Source: Lampropedia aestuarii (GTDB lineage Bacteria; Pseudomonadota; Gammaproteobacteria; Burkholderiales; Burkholderiaceae_C). From it: a stretch of DNA of 64,000 bases. Below are positions 4,683-64,000 of the stretch, in pieces. The position numbers and the translations under genes were made by a program. Location of the stretch: contig NZ_SSWX01000012.1 in assembly GCF_004803635.1 (NCBI RefSeq), forward strand, positions 1-64,000, read 5' to 3'. Position 1 is the first letter of the stretch; each line of letters opens with the position of its first letter. Under the pieces are notes generated by a model. That model was not told the DNA's origin and ran no database searches. It saw only the letters and a program-made list of their open reading frames with translations.

Positions 4683-5126
4683 TCAACGTTGAAACTGGAT
4701 GGTTTGCCAGGCAGCCGCCGGCTCTTTCAATAAGTCCTTGAACTGGTACTGGTCCAAGTGCGAGAAAAAGGCTTGCAGTGCATGGTCCAGAATGTTTTGC
4801 AAGCGGCAGTCGCCCGTCAGCAGACACGGATGCTCAGGCGCGGGGTCCTTGAAGCAATCAACGAGGGCGAAATCGTCCTCCATCGCACGCACGATATCGC
4901 CAACCCTTGCCTCATTGGTTGCGGGGTTGAAGCGAATGCCACCGCCTTTGCCGCGGATGGTGTCAATGAAACCTTTGCGGCCCAGCTCATGCACGACTTT
5001 GACCAAATGGTTCTCAGAGATCGCGTAATGCGTGGCGATTTCGCCAATCGAGGCTAGCCGCTCTGGCTGCTTGGCCAGATACAGCAGAGTGCGCAATGCG
5101 TAGTCGGTTTTCAGGGTCAGTCTCAT
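4683..5126 (-). CDS. nsrR: Rrf2 family regulator, NsrR type
   Basis: 147 residues. It starts MRLTLKTDYALRTLLYLA as in NsrR and has the Rrf2 helix-turn-helix with ISENHLVKVVHELGRKGF. The three Fe-S cysteines fall at 91, 101 and 107 (spacing C-x9-C-x5-C); E. coli NsrR has C91, C96 and C102. NsrR is a [4Fe-4S] repressor whose DNA binding is lost when nitric oxide attacks the cluster. A strong NsrR-type operator lies 130 bases upstream, between this gene and the divergent PAS gene. IscR is the main alternative, but the operator and the downstream haemoglobin argue for NsrR. Confidence 0.88.
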   Translation of the reverse strand: MRLTLKTDYALRTLLYLAKQPERLASIGEIATHYAISENHLVKVVHELGRKGFIDTIRGKGGGIRFNPATNEARVGDIVRAMEDDFALVDCFKDPAPEHPCLLTGDCRLQNILDHALQAFFSHLDQYQFKDLLKEPAAAWQTIQFQR

Positions 5127-5230
5127 CGTGGCTTGCTTTGTGTCGTGGGCTTGGCGGTCATCGGGTGACACGATGAGGGGGATTTTCCCACAGAGGCTCA
5201 CAGGCATTGCGTTGAATATTTTCTACATAT

Positions 5231-5246
5231 TTCAGAATTTTCTGAA
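5231..5246. promoter_or_regulatory. 16-bp palindrome between nsrR and the PAS gene
   Basis: TTCAGAATTTTCTGAA is a perfect inverted repeat located 9 bases before the NsrR-type box, in the AT-rich divergent promoter region. It overlaps where the -35 of the rightward promoter would lie. It could be a second operator or chance in AT-rich DNA. Confidence 0.35.
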
Positions 5247-5255
5247 ATTTTCATT

Positions 5256-5278
5256 AAGATGTATATAAAATACACCTT
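5256..5278. promoter_or_regulatory. NsrR operator
   Basis: An 11-1-11 inverted repeat: the left half AAGATGTATAT and the reverse complement of the right half AAGGTGTATTT agree at 9 of 11 positions. This fits the known NsrR consensus (AAGATGYATTT, inverted, one base apart). A -10-like TATAAA lies inside the box, so a bound repressor would block the rightward promoter. It sits 81 bases before the PAS gene start and 130 bases from the divergent nsrR start, so autoregulation is possible. Confidence 0.85.
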
Positions 5279-5359
5279 ATGGAGTGCGAGTACTGGCAGT
5301 TGAGCAAGCACTGCGCTTGGCCACTCCATCTTCAGTAAACCATATTGAAAGGGATCATG

Positions 5360-5785
5360 ATGAGCAATTCAATCAGCCATGCACAACTGTTGGGCGCACT
5401 GGACAATGTCGCGGTGATCTCCACTACCGACTTGCAAGGCAACATCACCTACGCCAATGACCTGTTTTGCAAACTCACCGGTTACGCCCGCGAAGAGTTG
5501 ATTGGCCAACCTCACAGCATCGTGCGCCATCCAGCCGTGCCCAAAGCGGTCTACAAAGACATGTGGGACACGATCAAAGCTGGCAATATCTGGACCGGTA
5601 TCGTGCCAAACCTGGGCAAGGGCGGTGGTGTGTATGTGGTCGATACCACGGTGCAGCCGCTGCGCGATGAGGCAGGGCAGATCAATGCCTATATCAGCAT
5701 CCGCCGCGTGATCAATGACTTGATGGACAACTTTGAAGCAGTCGAATTTTGCAAAGAGCAATTCGACGACTACTACGCCAACTGA
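5360..5785 (+). CDS. Single-domain PAS protein, Aer-like
   Basis: 141 residues consisting of little more than one PAS domain. The stretches ISTTDLQGNITYAND, GYAREELIGQPHSIVRHP and MWDTIKAG, then WTGIVPNLGKGG, follow the FAD-binding PAS domain of the E. coli aerotaxis receptor Aer. There is no membrane segment, HAMP or signalling domain. It probably binds a flavin or haem and senses redox state or gas. ATG at 5360 is preferred because AAGGGA lies 5 bases upstream; an overlapping ATG at 5357 is the alternative. It is the first gene behind the NsrR operator, 16 bases before the diflavin reductase gene. Confidence 0.85.
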   Translation: MSNSISHAQLLGALDNVAVISTTDLQGNITYANDLFCKLTGYAREELIGQPHSIVRHPAVPKAVYKDMWDTIKAGNIWTGIVPNLGKGGGVYVVDTTVQPLRDEAGQINAYISIRRVINDLMDNFEAVEFCKEQFDDYYAN

Positions 5786-5801
5786 ATCGGGAGGCCACAC
5801 C

Positions 5802-7400
5802 ATGTCTGCAAACGCCCAACGCTTGCACATCGCTTATGGCTCTGAATCGGGCAATGCGCAGACATTGGCGCAACGCTTGGCCCAGCAGCCCTTGTGGCAG
5901 GGCCAGGTCGATCCGGCCATCGAATTGAATGCGCTGTCTCTGGCTGCTTGGCAGCCAGGCGGTTTGCTGGTGATCATCTCCAGCTCTTTCGGCGATGGCG
6001 AGCCCCCAGCCAACGCTGCGTTTTTTTTGGCCCAAGTGCAGCAATCGGACGATTTGACCGGTTTGCGTTACGCACTATTTGGCTTGGGTGACACCGGCTA
6101 CCCGCAGTTTTGCGGTTTTACCAAGCAATTGGATGCGGCGCTGCAAGCGCGAGGCGCGCAGGCTGTGATTCCACGTGTGGATGCCGATACCGATTACGAA
6201 GATTTTTTTACTCAGTGGACGGCTGGCCTGGAGCAGTTGTGGCTGGGCCACGGCGATGTGGCCGCGCACATGCTGCTGCGTGTCGAGGCGTATGGTGAGG
6301 ACAAGGCTTTTGCAGCGCCAATCATCGCCCGCCAGTGCTTGAGCACATTGGCCCCTGGTGGCGATGCTACAGACTGCGCCGCCCACCACATTCGTTTGGA
6401 TGTGCGTGGCAGCGGTATGGCTTGGCGCGCTGGAGATACCTTGCATGTGCTGGCCAAGAATGGGCGTCCTTTGTTGGATGCCATCGCCCAATGGCTGGGC
6501 CAGCCGCAAGCAGTGGCTGCGCTGGAGGCCAAAGAGTTGCGGCTGATCAGCAAGGCGGTGCTGCGTGGTGTGGCAAGCGCCACTGGCCATGCGGGGCTCA
6601 AAGACCTGCTCAAATTCAGCCAGCGCAAGCAGTTGGAGCAGTACTTGTATGGTGCCGACATCCTCGATGTGCTGCAGGATTTTGCTTCGCCAGAGCAGGT
6701 TCGCTTAGATGATTTGCTCCAATGGCTCTCGCCAAGGTTGCCACGGGCGTATTCGATTGCATCGCCAGCTTCCAGCGACTATCTGGATTTGTGCATTCGC
6801 GCCGTACACCACCAACGCAATGGCCGCCAGCGCCATGGTATGGCCACGCATTGGCTATTGCATACGCAAGAGCCGGTGCAGGTGTATTGCCGCAGCAATC
6901 CGGGTTTTCATTTGCCCAAAGACCCGCAGGCGCCCTTGGTGCTGATTGGCACTGGCACTGGCATCGCACCCTTGCTTGGACTGCTGCGTGAAATGCAGAT
7001 GAAGGAGCAGCGGCGAAAAGTGTGTTTGATTTTTGGTGAAAAAACCAGCAGCCACGATTTTTTGTACCGTGATGAATTGCTGGCGCTGCAAGCATCGGGT
7101 GCGATTGAGCACTTATGGACCGCGTTCTCGCGCGATGGTGGTGCCAAATACTATGTGCAGCATGCGATGGCAGACCATGGGCAAGAGCTGCGCGACTACC
7201 TGGAGCGCAATGCCCATGTTTACATCTGTGGCAACAAGGCCCATCTGGAAAAAGCTGTCGCGCACGCTTTTAACGACCTCTATGTGCTTGCCACCAGCGA
7301 TGGCGAGTCAGGCTGCAGCGCAGCAGACGAATCCTGCGAGATGGGCGATTGCTGGACTTCCTTGCAAGCGCAAGCCCGCATCCATTTGGAGTTGTATTGA
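5802..7400 (+). CDS. Diflavin (FMN/FAD) NADPH reductase, CysJ/CPR-like
   Basis: 532 residues. An N-terminal flavodoxin domain (YGSESGNAQTLAQRL near residue 10; FGDGEPP) is followed by a ferredoxin-NADP reductase module with RAYSIASP (FAD) near residue 320, GTGTGIAP (NADPH) and the C-terminal HVYICGNKAHLE. It moves electrons from NADPH through FAD and FMN to a haem or Fe-S partner. GGGAGG lies 7 bases before the start. No cysI or other sulfate-assimilation gene is nearby. The next gene encodes a truncated haemoglobin, making that the likely electron acceptor. An odd Cys-rich patch (four Cys within 16 residues) sits near the C-terminus. Confidence 0.88.
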   Translation: MSANAQRLHIAYGSESGNAQTLAQRLAQQPLWQGQVDPAIELNALSLAAWQPGGLLVIISSSFGDGEPPANAAFFLAQVQQSDDLTGLRYALFGLGDTGYPQFCGFTKQLDAALQARGAQAVIPRVDADTDYEDFFTQWTAGLEQLWLGHGDVAAHMLLRVEAYGEDKAFAAPIIARQCLSTLAPGGDATDCAAHHIRLDVRGSGMAWRAGDTLHVLAKNGRPLLDAIAQWLGQPQAVAALEAKELRLISKAVLRGVASATGHAGLKDLLKFSQRKQLEQYLYGADILDVLQDFASPEQVRLDDLLQWLSPRLPRAYSIASPASSDYLDLCIRAVHHQRNGRQRHGMATHWLLHTQEPVQVYCRSNPGFHLPKDPQAPLVLIGTGTGIAPLLGLLREMQMKEQRRKVCLIFGEKTSSHDFLYRDELLALQASGAIEHLWTAFSRDGGAKYYVQHAMADHGQELRDYLERNAHVYICGNKAHLEKAVAHAFNDLYVLATSDGESGCSAADESCEMGDCWTSLQAQARIHLELY

Positions 7401-7429
7401 AATAGACGCAGACATTTCAGGAGGCAAAC

Positions 7430-7885
7430 ATGGGCAATTCACAAACCTTGTGCACAGAGGCAGAGATCGAAACGCTGGTGCAGCAGTTTTATGGCCGAGT
7501 GCGCGCCGATGCGACTTTAGGGCCGATTTTTAACGCAAAAATCGATGACTGGGTGGCCCATGAGCAATTGCTCAGCCAGTTCTGGTCCAGTGTGCTGCTG
7601 CGCACCGGCCGCTTTAGCGGCTCACCGATGCGCACCCATGCGCAGCTGCAAGACTTGAGCCCCGCCTTGTTTGAGCGTTGGCTAGCCATTTTTTCGCAAG
7701 TCTGCGACCAACAGCCCAACCAGGCGATGGCTGCGCATGCCCAGTCCATGGCCCAACGCATGGCCCAAAGCCTGTGGATGGGCTGGCAAATGCAGCACAG
7801 CGAGGGCGGCAAAGCGGTGCCTAGCGTTTTGACGCGTGTGCCTTTGGGGGAGTCTGAGCAGTTGTCGGCGCCAGATGTCAGCTGA
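7430..7885 (+). CDS. Group III truncated haemoglobin
   Basis: 151 residues. FYGRVRADATLGPIF is the group III pattern, with B10 Tyr at residue 21. FWSSVLLRTGRFSGSPMRTH places the proximal F8 His at about residue 70, followed by LFERWLAIF. Group III truncated globins bind O2, CO and NO, and some protect against nitrosative stress. A strong AGGAGG precedes the start and the gap from the reductase gene is 29 bases, so it belongs to the NsrR-box operon. A dioxygenase or denitrosylase role is inferred from the operator and the neighbouring reductase. Confidence 0.9.
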   Translation: MGNSQTLCTEAEIETLVQQFYGRVRADATLGPIFNAKIDDWVAHEQLLSQFWSSVLLRTGRFSGSPMRTHAQLQDLSPALFERWLAIFSQVCDQQPNQAMAAHAQSMAQRMAQSLWMGWQMQHSEGGKAVPSVLTRVPLGESEQLSAPDVS

Positions 7886-7974: not shown

Positions 7975-8331
7975 ATGGACATTGCAATCAAACGCGCCTA
8001 TGAAGCAGCCAGCCCAGCCGATGGCGCTCGCGTCCTTGTAGACCGGCTGTGGCCACGTGGTATTAAAAAAGAGGTGTTGCAGCTGGATCTGTGGTGCAAA
8101 GACATTGCCCCCAGCCCAGAGCTGCGCAAATGGTTTTGCCACCAGGCGGACAAGTTTGCCGAGTTCACGCAGCATTACCGCCAGGAGTTGGAGCACAACA
8201 CGGCAGGGCTTGCGCAACTGCAGCCTTTTTTGCTCAAGGGCCGACTCAGTTTGATTTACGCCGCACGTGATCCGCAGATCAACCATGCGGTGGTGTTGCA
8301 GGATTGGCTTCAAAAGAAACTGTCGCAATAA
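7975..8331 (+). CDS. DUF488 family protein (YeaO-like)
   Basis: 118 residues of the DUF488 family: it opens IKRAYEAASPADGARVLVDRLWPRG and carries LRKWFCHQADKFAEF and LSLIYAARDPQINHAVVL, all characteristic. The biochemical role of the family is unsettled. A CAGGAG stands before the start. The gap of 89 bases after the haemoglobin gene leaves open whether it is the last gene of the NO operon or has its own promoter. Confidence 0.85.
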   Translation: MDIAIKRAYEAASPADGARVLVDRLWPRGIKKEVLQLDLWCKDIAPSPELRKWFCHQADKFAEFTQHYRQELEHNTAGLAQLQPFLLKGRLSLIYAARDPQINHAVVLQDWLQKKLSQ

Positions 8332-11318: not shown

Positions 11319-13058
11319 ATGACTCTGTCTCTTTGTATTGCACAGCTCAATCCGGTGGTTGGGGATATTCGGGGCAATCTTGCCAAGGCCATTGAAGCAG
11401 CGCACACAGCGCATGCGCAAGGCCATCAGTTATTGGTTTTTTCTGAGTTGTTCCTGTGCGGTTATGCGGCAGAGGATTTGTTTTACCGCCCCTTGTTTCT
11501 AGAGGACTGCGCCGCTGCTTTGCAGGAGTTGGTAGAGGCCAGCTGCGCTTGGCCCCAGTTGCAGATTCTGATGGGCCACCCAGAGCGGGTGGATGCCAGC
11601 GTCCACTGGTCGCGCGACAGTGATTATGTGCCGCCTGCATGGAATGCCGTGAGCCTGATCGGCAATGGCCGATTGCAGGCCAGCTACCGCAAACAAGCGC
11701 TGCCCAACTATGGCGTGTTCGATGAGAAGCGGTATTTCGCCAGCAGCACGGCGATGGCTGCAGACCAGACTGCTGATGGTGCCGCCGATGTGGCACAGAT
11801 TATCGAGGTGGGCGGCATGCGCCTGGGTTTGTTGATTTGCGAAGACGCCTGGGTCGCACAGCCGGCGCTGCAAGCCAAGGCCGCAGGCGCGCAGGCTTTG
11901 GTGGTGGTCAATGCATCGCCGTTTGTGCTGGGCAAACCGCAGCAGCGCGCCCAGGTCCTCGCTGCGCGGGCACAAGAAACCGGTTTGCCGATTGTGTATG
12001 CGCATATGGTGGGCGGCCAGGATGAATTGGTCTTCGATGGCCACTCGATGGCCGTGCAGGCCACCGGTGAATTAGTCGCATTGGCGCCTGGCTTCGAGTC
12101 CTTGCTGTGGCCTGTGCAATTGCAAGCGGTTGCGGGGACAGATGCGTTGCAATGGCAGTGCCAGGTGCCAGCGCCTGACTGGACGGCTCCAGAGCACCAA
12201 GCCTGGCCACAAATTTGGCGGGCGCTGGTATTGGCCACGCGCGACTACGTACAGAAAAATGGCTTCAAGCATGTACTGCTGGGCTTGTCGGGCGGCCTGG
12301 ATTCGGCGCTGGTCTTGGCGATCGCTGTCGATGCTTTGGGTGCAGACAAGGTACGCGCGGTGATGATGCCATCGCCTTATACGGCCTCGATCAGCCTGGA
12401 CGATTCGCGTGAAATGGTGCGCCGCCTTGGGGTGCAATACGACGAAATCAGTATCCGTGAGGCGTTCGAGACTTTTAAAAATAGCCTGTCGACGCAGTTC
12501 GATGGCCGCGCAGAAGACACGACTGAAGAGAATTTGCAGGCCCGCATTCGCGGCGTGATGCTGATGGCTTTGTCCAATAAATTTGGCGGCTTGCTGCTCA
12601 CTACCGGCAATAAGAGTGAAGTCGCGATGGGCTACAGCACCTTGTATGGCGATATGTGCGGCGGCTTTGGTCCGCTCAAAGATGTGTTCAAGTCCGATGC
12701 GTTTGAGCTGGCGCACTGGCGCAATGCCCAGGACAGCAGCTGGGGCGTGGTCAATCCGATCCCACTGCGCATCATCACACGCCCGCCAAGTGCAGAGTTG
12801 CGTGAAGACCAGACAGACCAAGACAGCTTACCGCCTTACGAGATGCTGGATGCCATTTTGCGCTTGCGCATGGAGCTCAACCAGTCTGCAGCGCAAATCG
12901 TCGATGCCGGCTTTCCGGCTGACCGTGTCGACCAGGTCGTGCGCTTGCTGCGCATCAACGAATACAAACGCCGCCAAGCCGCACCAGGGCCCAAAATCAC
13001 TGCCCGAGTGTTTGGCAAGGATTGGCGTTATCCGATTACCAATGGTTATCGTGGCTGA
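11319..13058 (+). CDS. nadE: Glutamine-dependent NAD+ synthetase
   Basis: 579 residues, two domains. An N-terminal nitrilase-type glutaminase (SELFLCGY with the catalytic Glu; LLICEDAW with the nucleophile Cys near residue 172) feeds ammonia to a C-terminal ATP-pyrophosphatase synthetase domain (LGLSGGLDSAL near residue 323; TTGNKSEVAMGYSTLYGDM). It makes NAD+ from deamido-NAD+, ATP and glutamine. The PII gene follows 220 bases later, a linkage common in betaproteobacteria that couples nitrogen status to a glutamine-consuming enzyme. Confidence 0.97.
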   Translation: MTLSLCIAQLNPVVGDIRGNLAKAIEAAHTAHAQGHQLLVFSELFLCGYAAEDLFYRPLFLEDCAAALQELVEASCAWPQLQILMGHPERVDASVHWSRDSDYVPPAWNAVSLIGNGRLQASYRKQALPNYGVFDEKRYFASSTAMAADQTADGAADVAQIIEVGGMRLGLLICEDAWVAQPALQAKAAGAQALVVVNASPFVLGKPQQRAQVLAARAQETGLPIVYAHMVGGQDELVFDGHSMAVQATGELVALAPGFESLLWPVQLQAVAGTDALQWQCQVPAPDWTAPEHQAWPQIWRALVLATRDYVQKNGFKHVLLGLSGGLDSALVLAIAVDALGADKVRAVMMPSPYTASISLDDSREMVRRLGVQYDEISIREAFETFKNSLSTQFDGRAEDTTEENLQARIRGVMLMALSNKFGGLLLTTGNKSEVAMGYSTLYGDMCGGFGPLKDVFKSDAFELAHWRNAQDSSWGVVNPIPLRIITRPPSAELREDQTDQDSLPPYEMLDAILRLRMELNQSAAQIVDAGFPADRVDQVVRLLRINEYKRRQAAPGPKITARVFGKDWRYPITNGYRG

Positions 13059-13194: not shown

Positions 13195-13623
<429 letters not shown>

Positions 13624-13750
13624 GAGCCTGTTCAAAGTCTCCACGCAGACCGCGTTGGAGTCCAAAAGGATACGGTGCGCTGCAACAGGCGCCTTGCACT
13701 GCCTCTTTTTTGTGCCTTGCGCGACTGCGAAAAGATCGTAAACAGGTTCT
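13624..13750. repeat. MITE-like element, 127-bp copy after PII gene
   Basis: It begins AGAGCCTGTTCAAAGTCTCC and ends AGATCGTAAACAGGTTCT, imperfect inverted ends. The interior (CAACAGGCGCCTTGCACTGC, then TGTGCCTTGCGCGACTGC) is shared with the copies at 41103 and 58423. It starts on the base after the PII stop codon TAA. Confidence 0.75.
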
Positions 13751-40903: not shown

Positions 40904-41102
40904 GGGGTGACACTCCCGGAAAAGGCAGGCAGTTCAGGCCAAAATGGAAGGCCGCCCGCAGATGCGTAAACATGTGCGGGCGGAAATGGGCGAAGTGTAA
41001 ACAAAAGGCATGGCAGCTGCATGAAAAAAACAATAAAACAGTGAAAGAAACACTGTTTCTCTGCCCGTTGCGGCTTGAAAGCGACGCTGCGGCCAGCTGC
41101 TC
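40904..41102. other. Decarboxylase upstream region
   Basis: About 200 bases that should contain the decarboxylase promoter. No gene and no known operator recognised. Confidence 0.3.
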
Positions 41103-41367
41103 AGAGCCTGTTCATCATCTCCGCGCAGCCGCGTTGAAACCCAAAAGGATGCAATGCACTGCAAAAACCGCAGTCGGGCTATCTGTCCGGCGAGGATTTT
41201 TAATAAAGCAGCGTGCCTTTTGGGCGCCAACCCGAAGGGTTAGGCACAAAAAAGCGCATGACTGCGTTGCCCGTTTTGCTTATACAGACATAAGAGCAGC
41301 AACAGGCGCCTTGCACAGCCTCTTTTTTGTGCCTTGCGCGACTGCTTGGAGATGATGAACAGGCTCT
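41103..41367. repeat. MITE-like element, longest copy (265 bp, 20-bp perfect ends)
   Basis: The ends are exact inverted repeats: AGAGCCTGTTCATCATCTCC (41103-41122) and its complement (41348-41367). The interior shares blocks with the copies at 530, 13624 and 58423, including AAAACCGCAGTCGGGCTATC and CAACAGGCGCCTTGCA. It encodes no protein; frames through it give the same meaningless peptides at each copy. It sits 26 bases beyond the rdgC stop. Confidence 0.85.
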
Positions 41368-52659: not shown

Positions 52660-52812
52660 GATTGAAAAAGGACGAAAGCGCACCATCAGCGTGCGTCTAC
52701 AACAGCAGAATCAAACAGTATAGAAGCTTGGCAGGCACTGCGACGCCTTCAGCGCCCAATTGTGTGCTTTTGGCGTCGCATTCAAGGGCTATCTCAGCAC
52801 CTGAAGCAGCTT

Positions 52813-52862
52813 AGAGCCTGTTCATCATCGCCAGGCGGTTGCCACGAGGTGATGAATAGGTT
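52813..52862. repeat. Short inverted-repeat element, 50-bp copy
   Basis: It begins AGAGCCTGTTCATCATCGCC and ends GAGGTGATGAATAGGTTC, so nearly the whole copy is one hairpin. It lies directly next to the stop codon of the cytochrome b561 gene (TAA at 52865-52867 on the minus strand). Confidence 0.7.
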
Positions 52863-58422: not shown

Positions 58423-58548
58423 AGAGCCTTATTCGATCTTTTAGCAGATCGCGTTGAAGCCCAAAAGGGTGCAATGCGCGGCAACAGGCGCTTTGCACGG
58501 CCTCTTTTTATGCCTTGTGCGACTGCGAAAAGATCGTAAACAGGCTCT
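58423..58548. repeat. MITE-like element, 126-bp copy near dnaG
   Basis: The ends are AGAGCCTTATTCGATCTTTT and AAAAGATCGTAAACAGGCTCT, flanked on both sides by TAA, a possible 3-bp target duplication. The interior (AAGCCCAAAAGGGTGCAATG, CAACAGGCGCTTTGCACGGC) matches the 13624 copy. About 120 bases further on, another isolated AAGAGCC overlaps the dsbC stop codon. Confidence 0.8.
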
Positions 58549-61831: not shown

Positions 61832-61871
61832 TGAGGCTATCCAGCAAGCTGGCCAGTGCGTTGTTTTGGTG

Positions 61872-63999
61872 ATTTTGAGCTGCCTATGCGGCAGGTCACC
61901 CGTGGCTAGACGTACCAATACAAGCGGAGACTTTCTTAGCTGCCTATGCGGCAGGTCACATGCCATCCAAGATAAACCCAGAAGTGGTGATTTTCTGAGC
62001 TGCCTATGCGGCAGGTCACGATCCAGATGACCCAAATGCCGCCGAGGTGCTTTTCTGAGCTGCCTATGCGGCAGGTCACGTCGCTTCCACTCGCCCGCGC
62101 TGCTGCTTGTCTTTCTGAGCTGCCTATGCGGCAGGTCACGCGCTTTATACAGAAGAAGGCGGCATTTTGTTTTTCTGAGCTGCCTATGCGGCAGGTCACC
62201 TTGCGCTCATTGGCATCCACCAGCACCTGACTTTCTGAGCTGCCTATGCGGCAGGTCACTCGGCCACGCCCTTGGTCATCGCCTGGTAAATTTTCTGAGC
62301 TGCCTATGCGGCAGGTCACTTTCCCAGCTTGTGGGCGCGCGCCAATCTTCTTTTCTGAGCTGCCTATGCGGCAGGTCACGCCCGAGCCAGTGCGCCCCAG
62401 GGAGTGCCGGATTTCTGAGCTGCCTATGCGGCAGGTCACATTCGCCACACCGCGCAGCCATTGCGCAGGAGTTTCTGAGCTGCCTATGCGGCAGGTCACC
62501 CATGTACCAGACCTCCCTCTCAATTCAAAAATTTCTGAGCTGCCTATGCGGCAGGTCACATCGGCGACCTGATGCTATGTGTATTGGTAACTTTCTGAGC
62601 TGCCTATGCGGCAGGTCACAAGTTTCACAGTTACGCTTTGATGTTGGGTAATTTCTGAGCTGCCTATGCGGCAGGTCACCTGCCCGACTGCGCAATGAGT
62701 TCAGACATTGCTTTCTGAGCTGCCTATGCGGCAGGTCACTCATTTCCGCGCCAATGTTCTTGAATTTCTCATTTCTGAGCTGCCTATGCGGCAGGTCACA
62801 CTGACCACCTTTTGAGCCACTGAACTGCCAATTTCTGAGCTGCCTATGCGGCAGGTCACGAATTAACCCCACAAAATCCACCCTGCCCCAATTTCTGAGC
62901 TGCCTATGCGGCAGGTCACGCATAAAAGCGATTGCACTTGCGTCTGTCTCATTTCTGAGCTGCCTATGCGGCAGGTCACACATTGCAAATCACCTACGCC
63001 CCAGCGGCTGATTTCTGAGCTGCCTATGCGGCAGGTCACTTGGTAGTCCACAGTGCCCGATGCATCCCCCATTTCTGAGCTGCCTATGCGGCAGGTCACT
63101 GTTGGCTATGCGCTCATGACTCGCGAGGGATTTTCTGAGCTGCCTATGCGGCAGGTCACAATGGCTTTAACGGTGGCTCTGGTTTTGTGGATTTCTGAGC
63201 TGCCTATGCGGCAGGTCACCATAGGATTCAGACCAGGCATAAGTCACATCATTTCTGAGCTGCCTATGCGGCAGGTCACGAATAAAGCTTTTGATCAACT
63301 TACGAGTCTCTTTTCTGAGCTGCCTATGCGGCAGGTCACTTTAAACCTGAAGCCATCACGGGGGCCATGCCTTTCTGAGCTGCCTATGCGGCAGGTCACG
63401 CAAGAGGCCATTGGCGCTGGCGGGGTGACGGTTTCTGAGCTGCCTATGCGGCAGGTCACGTCGAGGCTGAAGCATTCCGCGCACTGAAGTGTTTCTGAGC
63501 TGCCTATGCGGCAGGTCACCGGGAAGCTGCGGAGCGGGAAATATTCCACCATTTCTGAGCTGCCTATGCGGCAGGTCACCTCTACGATGCGCGTACACCC
63601 TTCTGGCCAGCTTTCTGAGCTGCCTATGCGGCAGGTCACGCTACCCGGTAGCGGTGTCGTTGATGTGCTGCTTTCTGAGCTGCCTATGCGGCAGGTCACC
63701 TCTACGATGCGCGTACACCCTTCTGGCCAGCTTTCTGAGCTGCCTATGCGGCAGGTCACGCCAGGACTCTCGGCAGTACGTGGGGAATTGTTTCTGAGCT
63801 GCCTATGCGGCAGGTCACAGAGTATTGGTGTTCAGCCATATAGCCTCCTATTTCTGAGCTGCCTATGCGGCAGGTCACACAATGGCTTTGCCTGCATCCC
63901 ATATCCAGCAATTTCTGAGCTGCCTATGCGGCAGGTCACGCCTGCGATGCTCAGCGAGCTCTTTGATGTGATTTCTGAGCTGCCTATGCGGCAGGTCAC
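61872..63999 (-). CRISPR. Type I-F CRISPR array, 36 repeats visible, truncated by window edge
   Basis: 36 repeats of 28 bp at a 60-bp pitch with 35 complete spacers. In crRNA sense (minus strand) the repeat starts GTGACCTGCCGCATAGGCAG and ends CTCAGAAA, with the CTGCC/GGCAG hairpin and 3' half of I-F repeats. Spacers are 32 bp except 31 bp at 63760-63790 and 33 bp at 63879-63911. The two leftmost repeats are degenerate (ATTTTGAGC and TTTCTTAGC versus TTTCTGAGC), marking the trailer end. Leader and cas genes are therefore expected right of position 64000. The spacers at 63580-63611 and 63700-63731 are identical. Confidence 0.97.
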
Positions 64000-64000
64000 C

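Follow-up and report, generated by a model that had tools for sequence, protein, structure and literature searches.

The window analysed here is a stretch of 64,000 nucleotides from Lampropedia aestuarii (contig NZ_SSWX01000012.1, positions 1 to 64,000), and near its start lies an operon encoding a PAS protein, a diflavin reductase and a group III truncated haemoglobin, with an nsrR-like gene on the opposite strand. We propose, with moderate confidence and with the working scheme given below included, that this is a nitric oxide (NO) response operon. It would be built on a conserved module of a PAS protein binding flavin adenine dinucleotide (FAD) and a diflavin reductase using reduced nicotinamide adenine dinucleotide phosphate (NADPH), with the group III globin attached in some lineages. 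The anatomy and the distribution of the PAS-diflavin pair are solid, and they point to an electron-transfer pair. The initial annotation had named this gene set, and all four genes were confirmed where it had placed them.

4683 to 5126, minus strand: nsrR-like regulator gene of the Rrf2 family, divergent from the PAS gene
5242 to 5271, plus strand: sigma-70-like promoter candidate, 9 of 12 consensus positions, overlapping the operator
5256 to 5278, plus strand: NsrR-type operator, 2 mismatches to a 23-base consensus
5360 to 5785, plus strand: stand-alone FAD-PAS protein of the Aer/MmoS/NifL type, 141 amino acids, without output domain
5802 to 7400, plus strand: NADPH-type diflavin reductase with flavodoxin and FAD/NAD(P) domains, 532 amino acids
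7430 to 7885, plus strand: group III truncated haemoglobin, 151 amino acids

The PAS and reductase genes are separated by 16 bases, and the reductase and globin genes by 29. As for gene starts, the nsrR-like open reading frame (ORF) can be extended to 5207, and the first start that matches the alignment in five homologues is at 5126; the PAS gene has an alternative start at 5357. The closest named relative among the fetched loci is Lampropedia puyangensis, with a reductase 70% identical.

A scan of an 84,980-species collection with a reductase alignment and two peptide patterns confirmed 84 relatives, and 80 loci were kept. A PAS gene is found upstream of the reductase gene, on the same strand and 4 to 98 bases away by projected ends, in 71 of the 80. 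The PAS identity is 64-93%, and these loci belong to alpha-, beta- and gammaproteobacteria. A group III globin gene directly follows the reductase gene in 10 of the 80: two Lampropedia, two Vandammella, one Comamonadaceae metagenome-assembled genome (MAG), four Lautropia and one Aliirhizobium. In L083 there is an eleventh hit, 8 kilobases (kb) away on the opposite strand. The order PAS, reductase, globin, whose conservation the initial annotation had proposed to look for in other genomes, does recur, being contiguous in 8 of the 80 other loci. Because the PAS gene is upstream in 71 loci and the globin follows in 10, we take the PAS protein and the reductase as the conserved unit, and the globin as a client or a later addition.

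The nine loci without an upstream PAS gene are seven distant diflavins (26-35% identity) and two Lautropia MAGs. Three groups make up much of the 71 PAS loci, with 27 of the Stenotrophomonas type, 9 from Pseudomonas and 9 from Pasteurellaceae, so the locus counts are not independent events. Doubled labels (for example G002/L037, G001/L102 and G044/L041) stand for one genome, tallied once per count. Among 398 Pseudomonadota genomes, PAS and reductase occur in the same 4 (the window's own and three from one genus) and neither occurs in the other 394; distant copies could be masked in this count by its thresholds (E value up to 1e-40 for PAS and up to 1e-85 for the reductase) and by the scoring of at most three candidates per genome. 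The plasmid collection gave a single record, the Rhizobium plasmid L084, already among the loci. In the literature searched, which was thin on subscription journals, no description of the pair turned up, either by itself or together with a group III globin. A separate observation concerns L049, a record titled Bacillus subtilis SK7B5, whose locus is rich in guanine and cytosine (GC-rich) and Stenotrophomonas-like, where the PAS is 80% and the reductase 52% identical to its counterpart in the window. This assembly is possibly contaminated or mislabelled.

In terms of domains, the reductase matches Flavodoxin_1 (E value 1.3e-23), FAD_binding_1 (1.5e-11) and NAD_binding_1 (9.1e-17), and its best PDB matches are CysJ and P450 reductase. 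It resembles the CysJ and NADPH-P450 reductase family in its flavodoxin and FAD/NAD(P) domains, and shares with CysJ an S-R...K-x-Y-V-Q stretch, which we take as a mark of NADPH use. It could then be asked whether this is an ordinary sulfite reductase, or a biosynthetic flavoprotein, placed behind an NsrR box incidentally. The top NCBIfam model is indeed CysJ, but the score of 288.7 bits is far under the cut-off of 668. Identity to Escherichia coli CysJ is 26%, the CysJ N-terminal extension is absent and the linking region is shorter. Furthermore, no cysI was found in the examined flanks of the 73 family loci, where the PAS gene is a constant partner (unlinked cysI genes were not searched for), whereas cysI adjoins four of the seven distant diflavins. 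The identification as CysJ was rejected on the score, the identity and these flanks, and we hold the incidental explanation to be very improbable. Linkage to cysI elsewhere, which would have spoken against the initial annotation, was thus not seen in these flanks.

The PAS protein matches Pfam PAS (E value 9.7e-15) and, in the PDB, 3EWK (1.1e-38) and 8DIK (3.2e-30). Its nearest kin are the FAD-binding redox-sensor PAS domains of MmoS, Aer and NifL. Five structure models range in pLDDT (predicted local distance difference test) from 93 for the best to 53. The FAD contacts described for Aer are H53, R57, M69, W70, N85 and R115, and also T27, in the part of the source available (PMC9668731). Mapped onto 45 PAS sequences through the PDB profile match, where T27 could not be placed on the alignment, five of these positions are identical in 45 of 45 and M69 is kept in 41 of 45, with Leu in the other four. 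The protein thus carries the Aer-type contacts and is predicted to bind FAD. It is like Aer, MmoS and NifL in sequence, fold and these contact residues; in those systems, however, the PAS is a sensor domain inside a larger protein, and here it stands alone beside a reductase.

This kinship raises a second possibility, that the two proteins are a redox signalling pair. The reductase would set the redox state of the FAD-PAS, which would control another protein as NifL and Aer do within a single chain, and the globin would be a neighbour in the NO regulon. Membership of the redox-sensor class argues for this. So does conservation: the columns of the PAS alignment average 78% identity over 45 rows, against 52% over 41 rows for the reductase. 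The PAS protein, for which the initial annotation had offered no role, is far better conserved, as if it bound a further conserved partner. Of the 71 PAS loci, 44 entered these alignments, and of the 73 reductase loci 40, in each case together with the window; many of those left out are similar Stenotrophomonas loci. On the other side, the PAS protein lacks an output domain. Flanking ORFs of 29 representative loci also gave no family of more than three members among the matches listed, Rrf2 being the commonest, although an unlinked partner would escape such a scan. It covered 74 of 117 downstream and 66 of 112 upstream ORFs, many of them probably in the wrong frame in GC-rich DNA, and the 25 commonest families of 69 and of 73. 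We regard a pure signalling role as quite unlikely.

The upstream box supports an NO connection. The operator at 5256-5278, AAGATGTATATAAAATACACCTT, agrees at 20 of 22 defined bases with the 23-base NsrR consensus. With up to three mismatches allowed, the window contains no match besides it, and none arose when the window was shuffled 100 times, so the near-consensus box that the initial annotation had read before the PAS gene stands. With a looser pattern, drawn up after the box had been seen, it is the only site without mismatch in the 4.17-megabase genome. The one other site, weaker with two mismatches, lies at C7:92215-92237 (L036 5216-5238), between transporter-like genes, and was not used. 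The overlapping promoter candidate is weak: sites of its type number 2 in the window, with 1.8 expected from shuffles, and are thus not in excess. The regulator matches Pfam Rrf2 (E value 3.5e-34). It carries Asp8, Cys91, Cys101 and Cys107, presumably the ligands of an iron-sulfur cluster in regulators of this family, which fits an iron-sulfur Rrf2 protein.

Across the relatives, NsrR boxes of at least 17 of 22 bases, a threshold fixed after the scores were seen, are found upstream of PAS in 22 of the 71 loci, again in alpha-, beta- and gammaproteobacteria. Of the control windows drawn from each of these 22 loci, at most 60 per locus, none reached the score of the box. The loci with boxes belong to Lampropedia, Vandammella, Allofranklinella and a Comamonadaceae MAG; others are from Serratia, Erwinia, Pantoea, Alteromonas, Vibrio and Veronia, and further ones from Rhizobium-type bacteria, Sinorhizobium, Pseudochelatococcus and Neomegalonema. 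An nsrR-like homologue is divergent from PAS in 9 of the 80 loci and downstream in two; two of the distant diflavins also have weak Rrf2-type hits at a distance of 5 kb. The Stenotrophomonas-type loci present another picture, with an FNR/DNR-like motif, TTGAY-N4-RTCAA, in 22 of 27, nearly all 78-81 bases before PAS, and the same motif with its final base changed in the remaining five. A different palindrome, AATATGACATCAAAAGTCATATT, was seen 127 bases before PAS in Pseudomonas cichorii (L110).

Ten unlinked group III globin genes from pair genomes were examined. Those of the Stenotrophomonas type have a perfect TTGAT-N4-ATCAA in three of three cases, equalled in 0-6% of control windows. In Sinorhizobium, an NsrR box of 19 of 22 is present both at the pair and at one of two unlinked globin genes. 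Directly after the globin, nnrS is found in L. puyangensis and L. cohaerens; in these two species nnrS together with a small membrane protein (a weak CopD-like match, below cut-off) occupies 3709-5420 in L037 and 11985-13703 in L102. The locus L028 comes from a genome that lacks the reductase; there, globin and nnrS follow a box matching 18 of 22 bases, itself without control. These nnrS runs were assessed without control. The window genome, for its part, has no match to Hmp above the cut-off and none to RIC/YtfE or Hcp. Judged from the boxes, the picture points to a PAS-diflavin module that is NO-regulated in many lineages, with the truncated haemoglobin as an optional part.

The globin itself is assigned to the group III truncated haemoglobins by profile, fold and haem-pocket residues. 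Its best PDB match is 2IG3 of Campylobacter jejuni, with E values of 8.5e-29 by profile and 2.5e-06 by fold, and its score against Pfam Bac_globin is 20.8 bits, slightly under the cut-off of 21. The residues Phe-B9, Tyr-B10, Phe-CD1, His-E7, His-F8 and Trp-G8 are kept in 14 of 14 aligned globins. C. jejuni Ctb (2IG3) is alike in fold and haem-pocket residues; the differences are that identity is about 30% and that Ctb is under NssR, according to the portion of the source at hand (PMC3820574).

A third explanation is a strict form of the split flavohaemoglobin that the initial annotation had considered. The reductase would recharge the globin and PAS would only assist, and a pair without globin would be a remnant or would use Hmp or another globin. 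The likeness to Hmp is that globin and flavin reductase activities come together under an NsrR-type box. The Hmp trait of globin and FAD/NAD reductase in one chain is not present, the window having separate ORFs. Hmp, some of whose features are given in the available sections of two papers (PMC1274295; PMC3820574), has a 3/3 globin where the operon encodes one of the 2/2 group III kind, and a single FAD domain where the operon has a diflavin reductase with an extra PAS protein.

A split globin and reductase acting on NO is not new as an idea. It has been predicted for Legionella and tested in Bradyrhizobium, two precedents that favour the explanation. In Legionella pneumophila, NsrR was predicted to have glbN-lpg2536 as its only target, and an NO oxidation like that of Hmp was proposed, in the parts of the sources available (PMC1274295; PMC3820574). 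The likeness is a separate truncated globin and reductase under NsrR; it differs in having a cyanoglobin-type globin and a ferredoxin-reductase-type partner, and those parts mention no PAS protein. In Bradyrhizobium japonicum, bjgb and flp mutants are each more sensitive to nitrosative stress, and the similarity is that of a single-domain globin with a separate flavoprotein. There, however, control is by NasST within a nitrate assimilation operon, the globin domain is Hmp-like and Flp also serves nitrate reductase, with no PAS protein mentioned in the accessible part of that paper (PMC4724949).

The genome surveys bear on this explanation directly. In its favour are the globin behind the reductase in 10 of the 80 loci, the lack of any match above the Hmp cut-off in the window genome, and the hints of unlinked-globin co-regulation in Stenotrophomonas and Sinorhizobium. 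Against it, 33 pair-bearing genomes, hand-chosen from those behind the 73 family loci and some of them MAGs, have a group III globin in 15 cases and Hmp over the cut-off in 10. Among the 18 without a group III globin, seven have a PF00042 globin (all with Hmp) and three others PF01152. The remaining eight gave no globin hit in four profile searches (group III, Hmp, PF01152 and PF00042): a Neomegalonema MAG, Erwinia sp. JUb26, two Mannheimia, Aggregatibacter kilianii, Haemophilus sputorum, a gammaproteobacterial MAG and Actinobacillus capsulatus, the MAGs being G067 and G084.

The opposite case is also found. A panel of 60 genomes, the window's own included, has 16 with a globin hit and 9 with a reductase match of at least 50% identity; eight have both, and G003 has the reductase only. 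G004, G005 (only 80% complete), G023, G027 and G050 have globins 41-60% identical without the reductase, and three further genomes have weaker globin hits without it. Since there are pair genomes without globin and globins without the reductase, the pair can occur where no globin does, and a globin does not imply the pair. Joint inheritance of reductase and globin, which we had set as our own criterion, was not seen: 18 of 33 lack a group III globin and five relatives have the globin only.

Of the split flavohaemoglobin idea, the NsrR-type box, the three-gene order, a diflavin reductase other than CysJ and the absence of Hmp from the window genome stand, while a dedicated reductase-globin pairing is not supported (18 of 33). 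The operon is also not a mere Hmp replacement, because L. puyangensis holds Hmp as well. A possible fusion of the Rosetta-stone kind, a 656-residue frame over the globin in L006/L022, was rejected, as its translation holds no reductase. A globin tree allowed no conclusion on whether the globin had joined the pair once: of its 28 inner branches 11 are open, and several branches are long. With the absence of either box at 6 of 10 unlinked group III globin genes in pair genomes also against it, we find the strict form of this explanation rather unlikely.

Several results weigh against the NO response module that we prefer. The regulator scores 124.8 bits to the NCBIfam NsrR model (cut-off 182) and 124.9 to RirA (cut-off 193); being under both cut-offs, it is assigned to neither, and with Asp8 and the three cysteines present, NsrR-like is the proper name. 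No NsrR box is found in 49 of the 71 loci, namely the 27 Stenotrophomonas or Stenotrophomonas-like, 9 Pseudomonas, 9 Pasteurellaceae, two Lautropia, L094 and L098, and the two Lautropia loci nonetheless carry PAS, reductase and globin. A clear box of either kind, NsrR or FNR/DNR-like, is missing in 27 of the 71, and neither stands out in Pseudomonas and most Pasteurellaceae. According to the portion available of a 2005 regulon study (PMC1274295), which does not mention Stenotrophomonas, Pasteurellaceae and Pseudomonadales lack NsrR orthologues. The FNR/DNR-like boxes are singly weak, with controls equal in 0-12% at 23 loci and in 27-47% at four. The 6 of 10 unlinked globin genes with neither box count here too.

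As for the make-up of the module, two Lautropia MAGs (L044 and L045) have a globin behind a family reductase (52%), and the 2.0 and 9.0 kb examined upstream of it contain no PAS gene. In Allofranklinella the pair and the globin are on separate contigs. A further truncated globin, of the PF01152 type, is present in the window genome, distant from the operon (C1:101653-102009, E value 1.5e-38). Lastly, there are the eight globin-free genomes. In genomes of this kind the pair would have to work with some other acceptor or in signalling, and a shared non-globin acceptor was not found in 34 genomes, where RIC/YtfE occurs in 8 (5 over cut-off) and Hcp in 5. These two were rejected as universal partners on those counts.

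In the working scheme, based on the motif and on known NsrR biology, NO would damage the iron-sulfur cluster of the NsrR-like repressor and so free the box over the promoter. The reductase, from its domains, would pass electrons from NADPH to FAD and on to flavin mononucleotide (FMN). In the window the most likely recipient of these electrons would be the ferric globin, reached either directly or by way of the FAD-PAS, and the haemoglobin would stay ferrous. The oxygen-bound haemoglobin would then convert NO to nitrate, as expected from known globin chemistry. The part of the FAD-PAS may be that of a one-electron partner, or else it may govern the redox state. The FAD of NifL has reportedly been described, in a 1998 paper, as taking electrons from flavin reductases. 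The FAD of Aer cycles between the oxidised form and the anionic semiquinone at about -290 mV, in the sections available (PMC9668731), and such behaviour would suit a one-electron role.

A more specific and tentative version, to which we give a low probability, makes the FAD-PAS a soluble one-electron carrier. The result would be an NO-induced relay of three flavins (FAD, FMN, FAD), feeding the truncated haemoglobin in some lineages and another NO-removing or repair enzyme in the globin-free ones.

Other features were observed around the operon and elsewhere in the window. A DUF488-family gene lies at 7975-8331 on the globin strand, 89 bases past the globin, and in L. puyangensis this place directly after the globin is taken by nnrS. 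In Lautropia (L041 at 12051-12755, L044, L045 and L046) a conserved gene follows the globin, and its L041 copy matches DsbA-like oxidoreductases. At 61868-64000 there is an array like clustered regularly interspaced short palindromic repeats, in which a 28-base repeat recurs every 60 bases, in about 36 copies, up to the window edge. A dispersed repeat is found at 534-679, 13623-13750, 41095-41367, 52805-52842 and 58477-58548, in inverted and direct copies of about 30-119 bases that are 68-90% alike.

The operon supplies a concrete candidate for the NADPH reductase that recharges a group III globin. The conserved PAS-diflavin pair spans three proteobacterial classes, and its regulation in many of its members points to nitric oxide. 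If the three-flavin relay were true, a PAS domain, familiar as a sensor, would serve as an electron-transfer protein.

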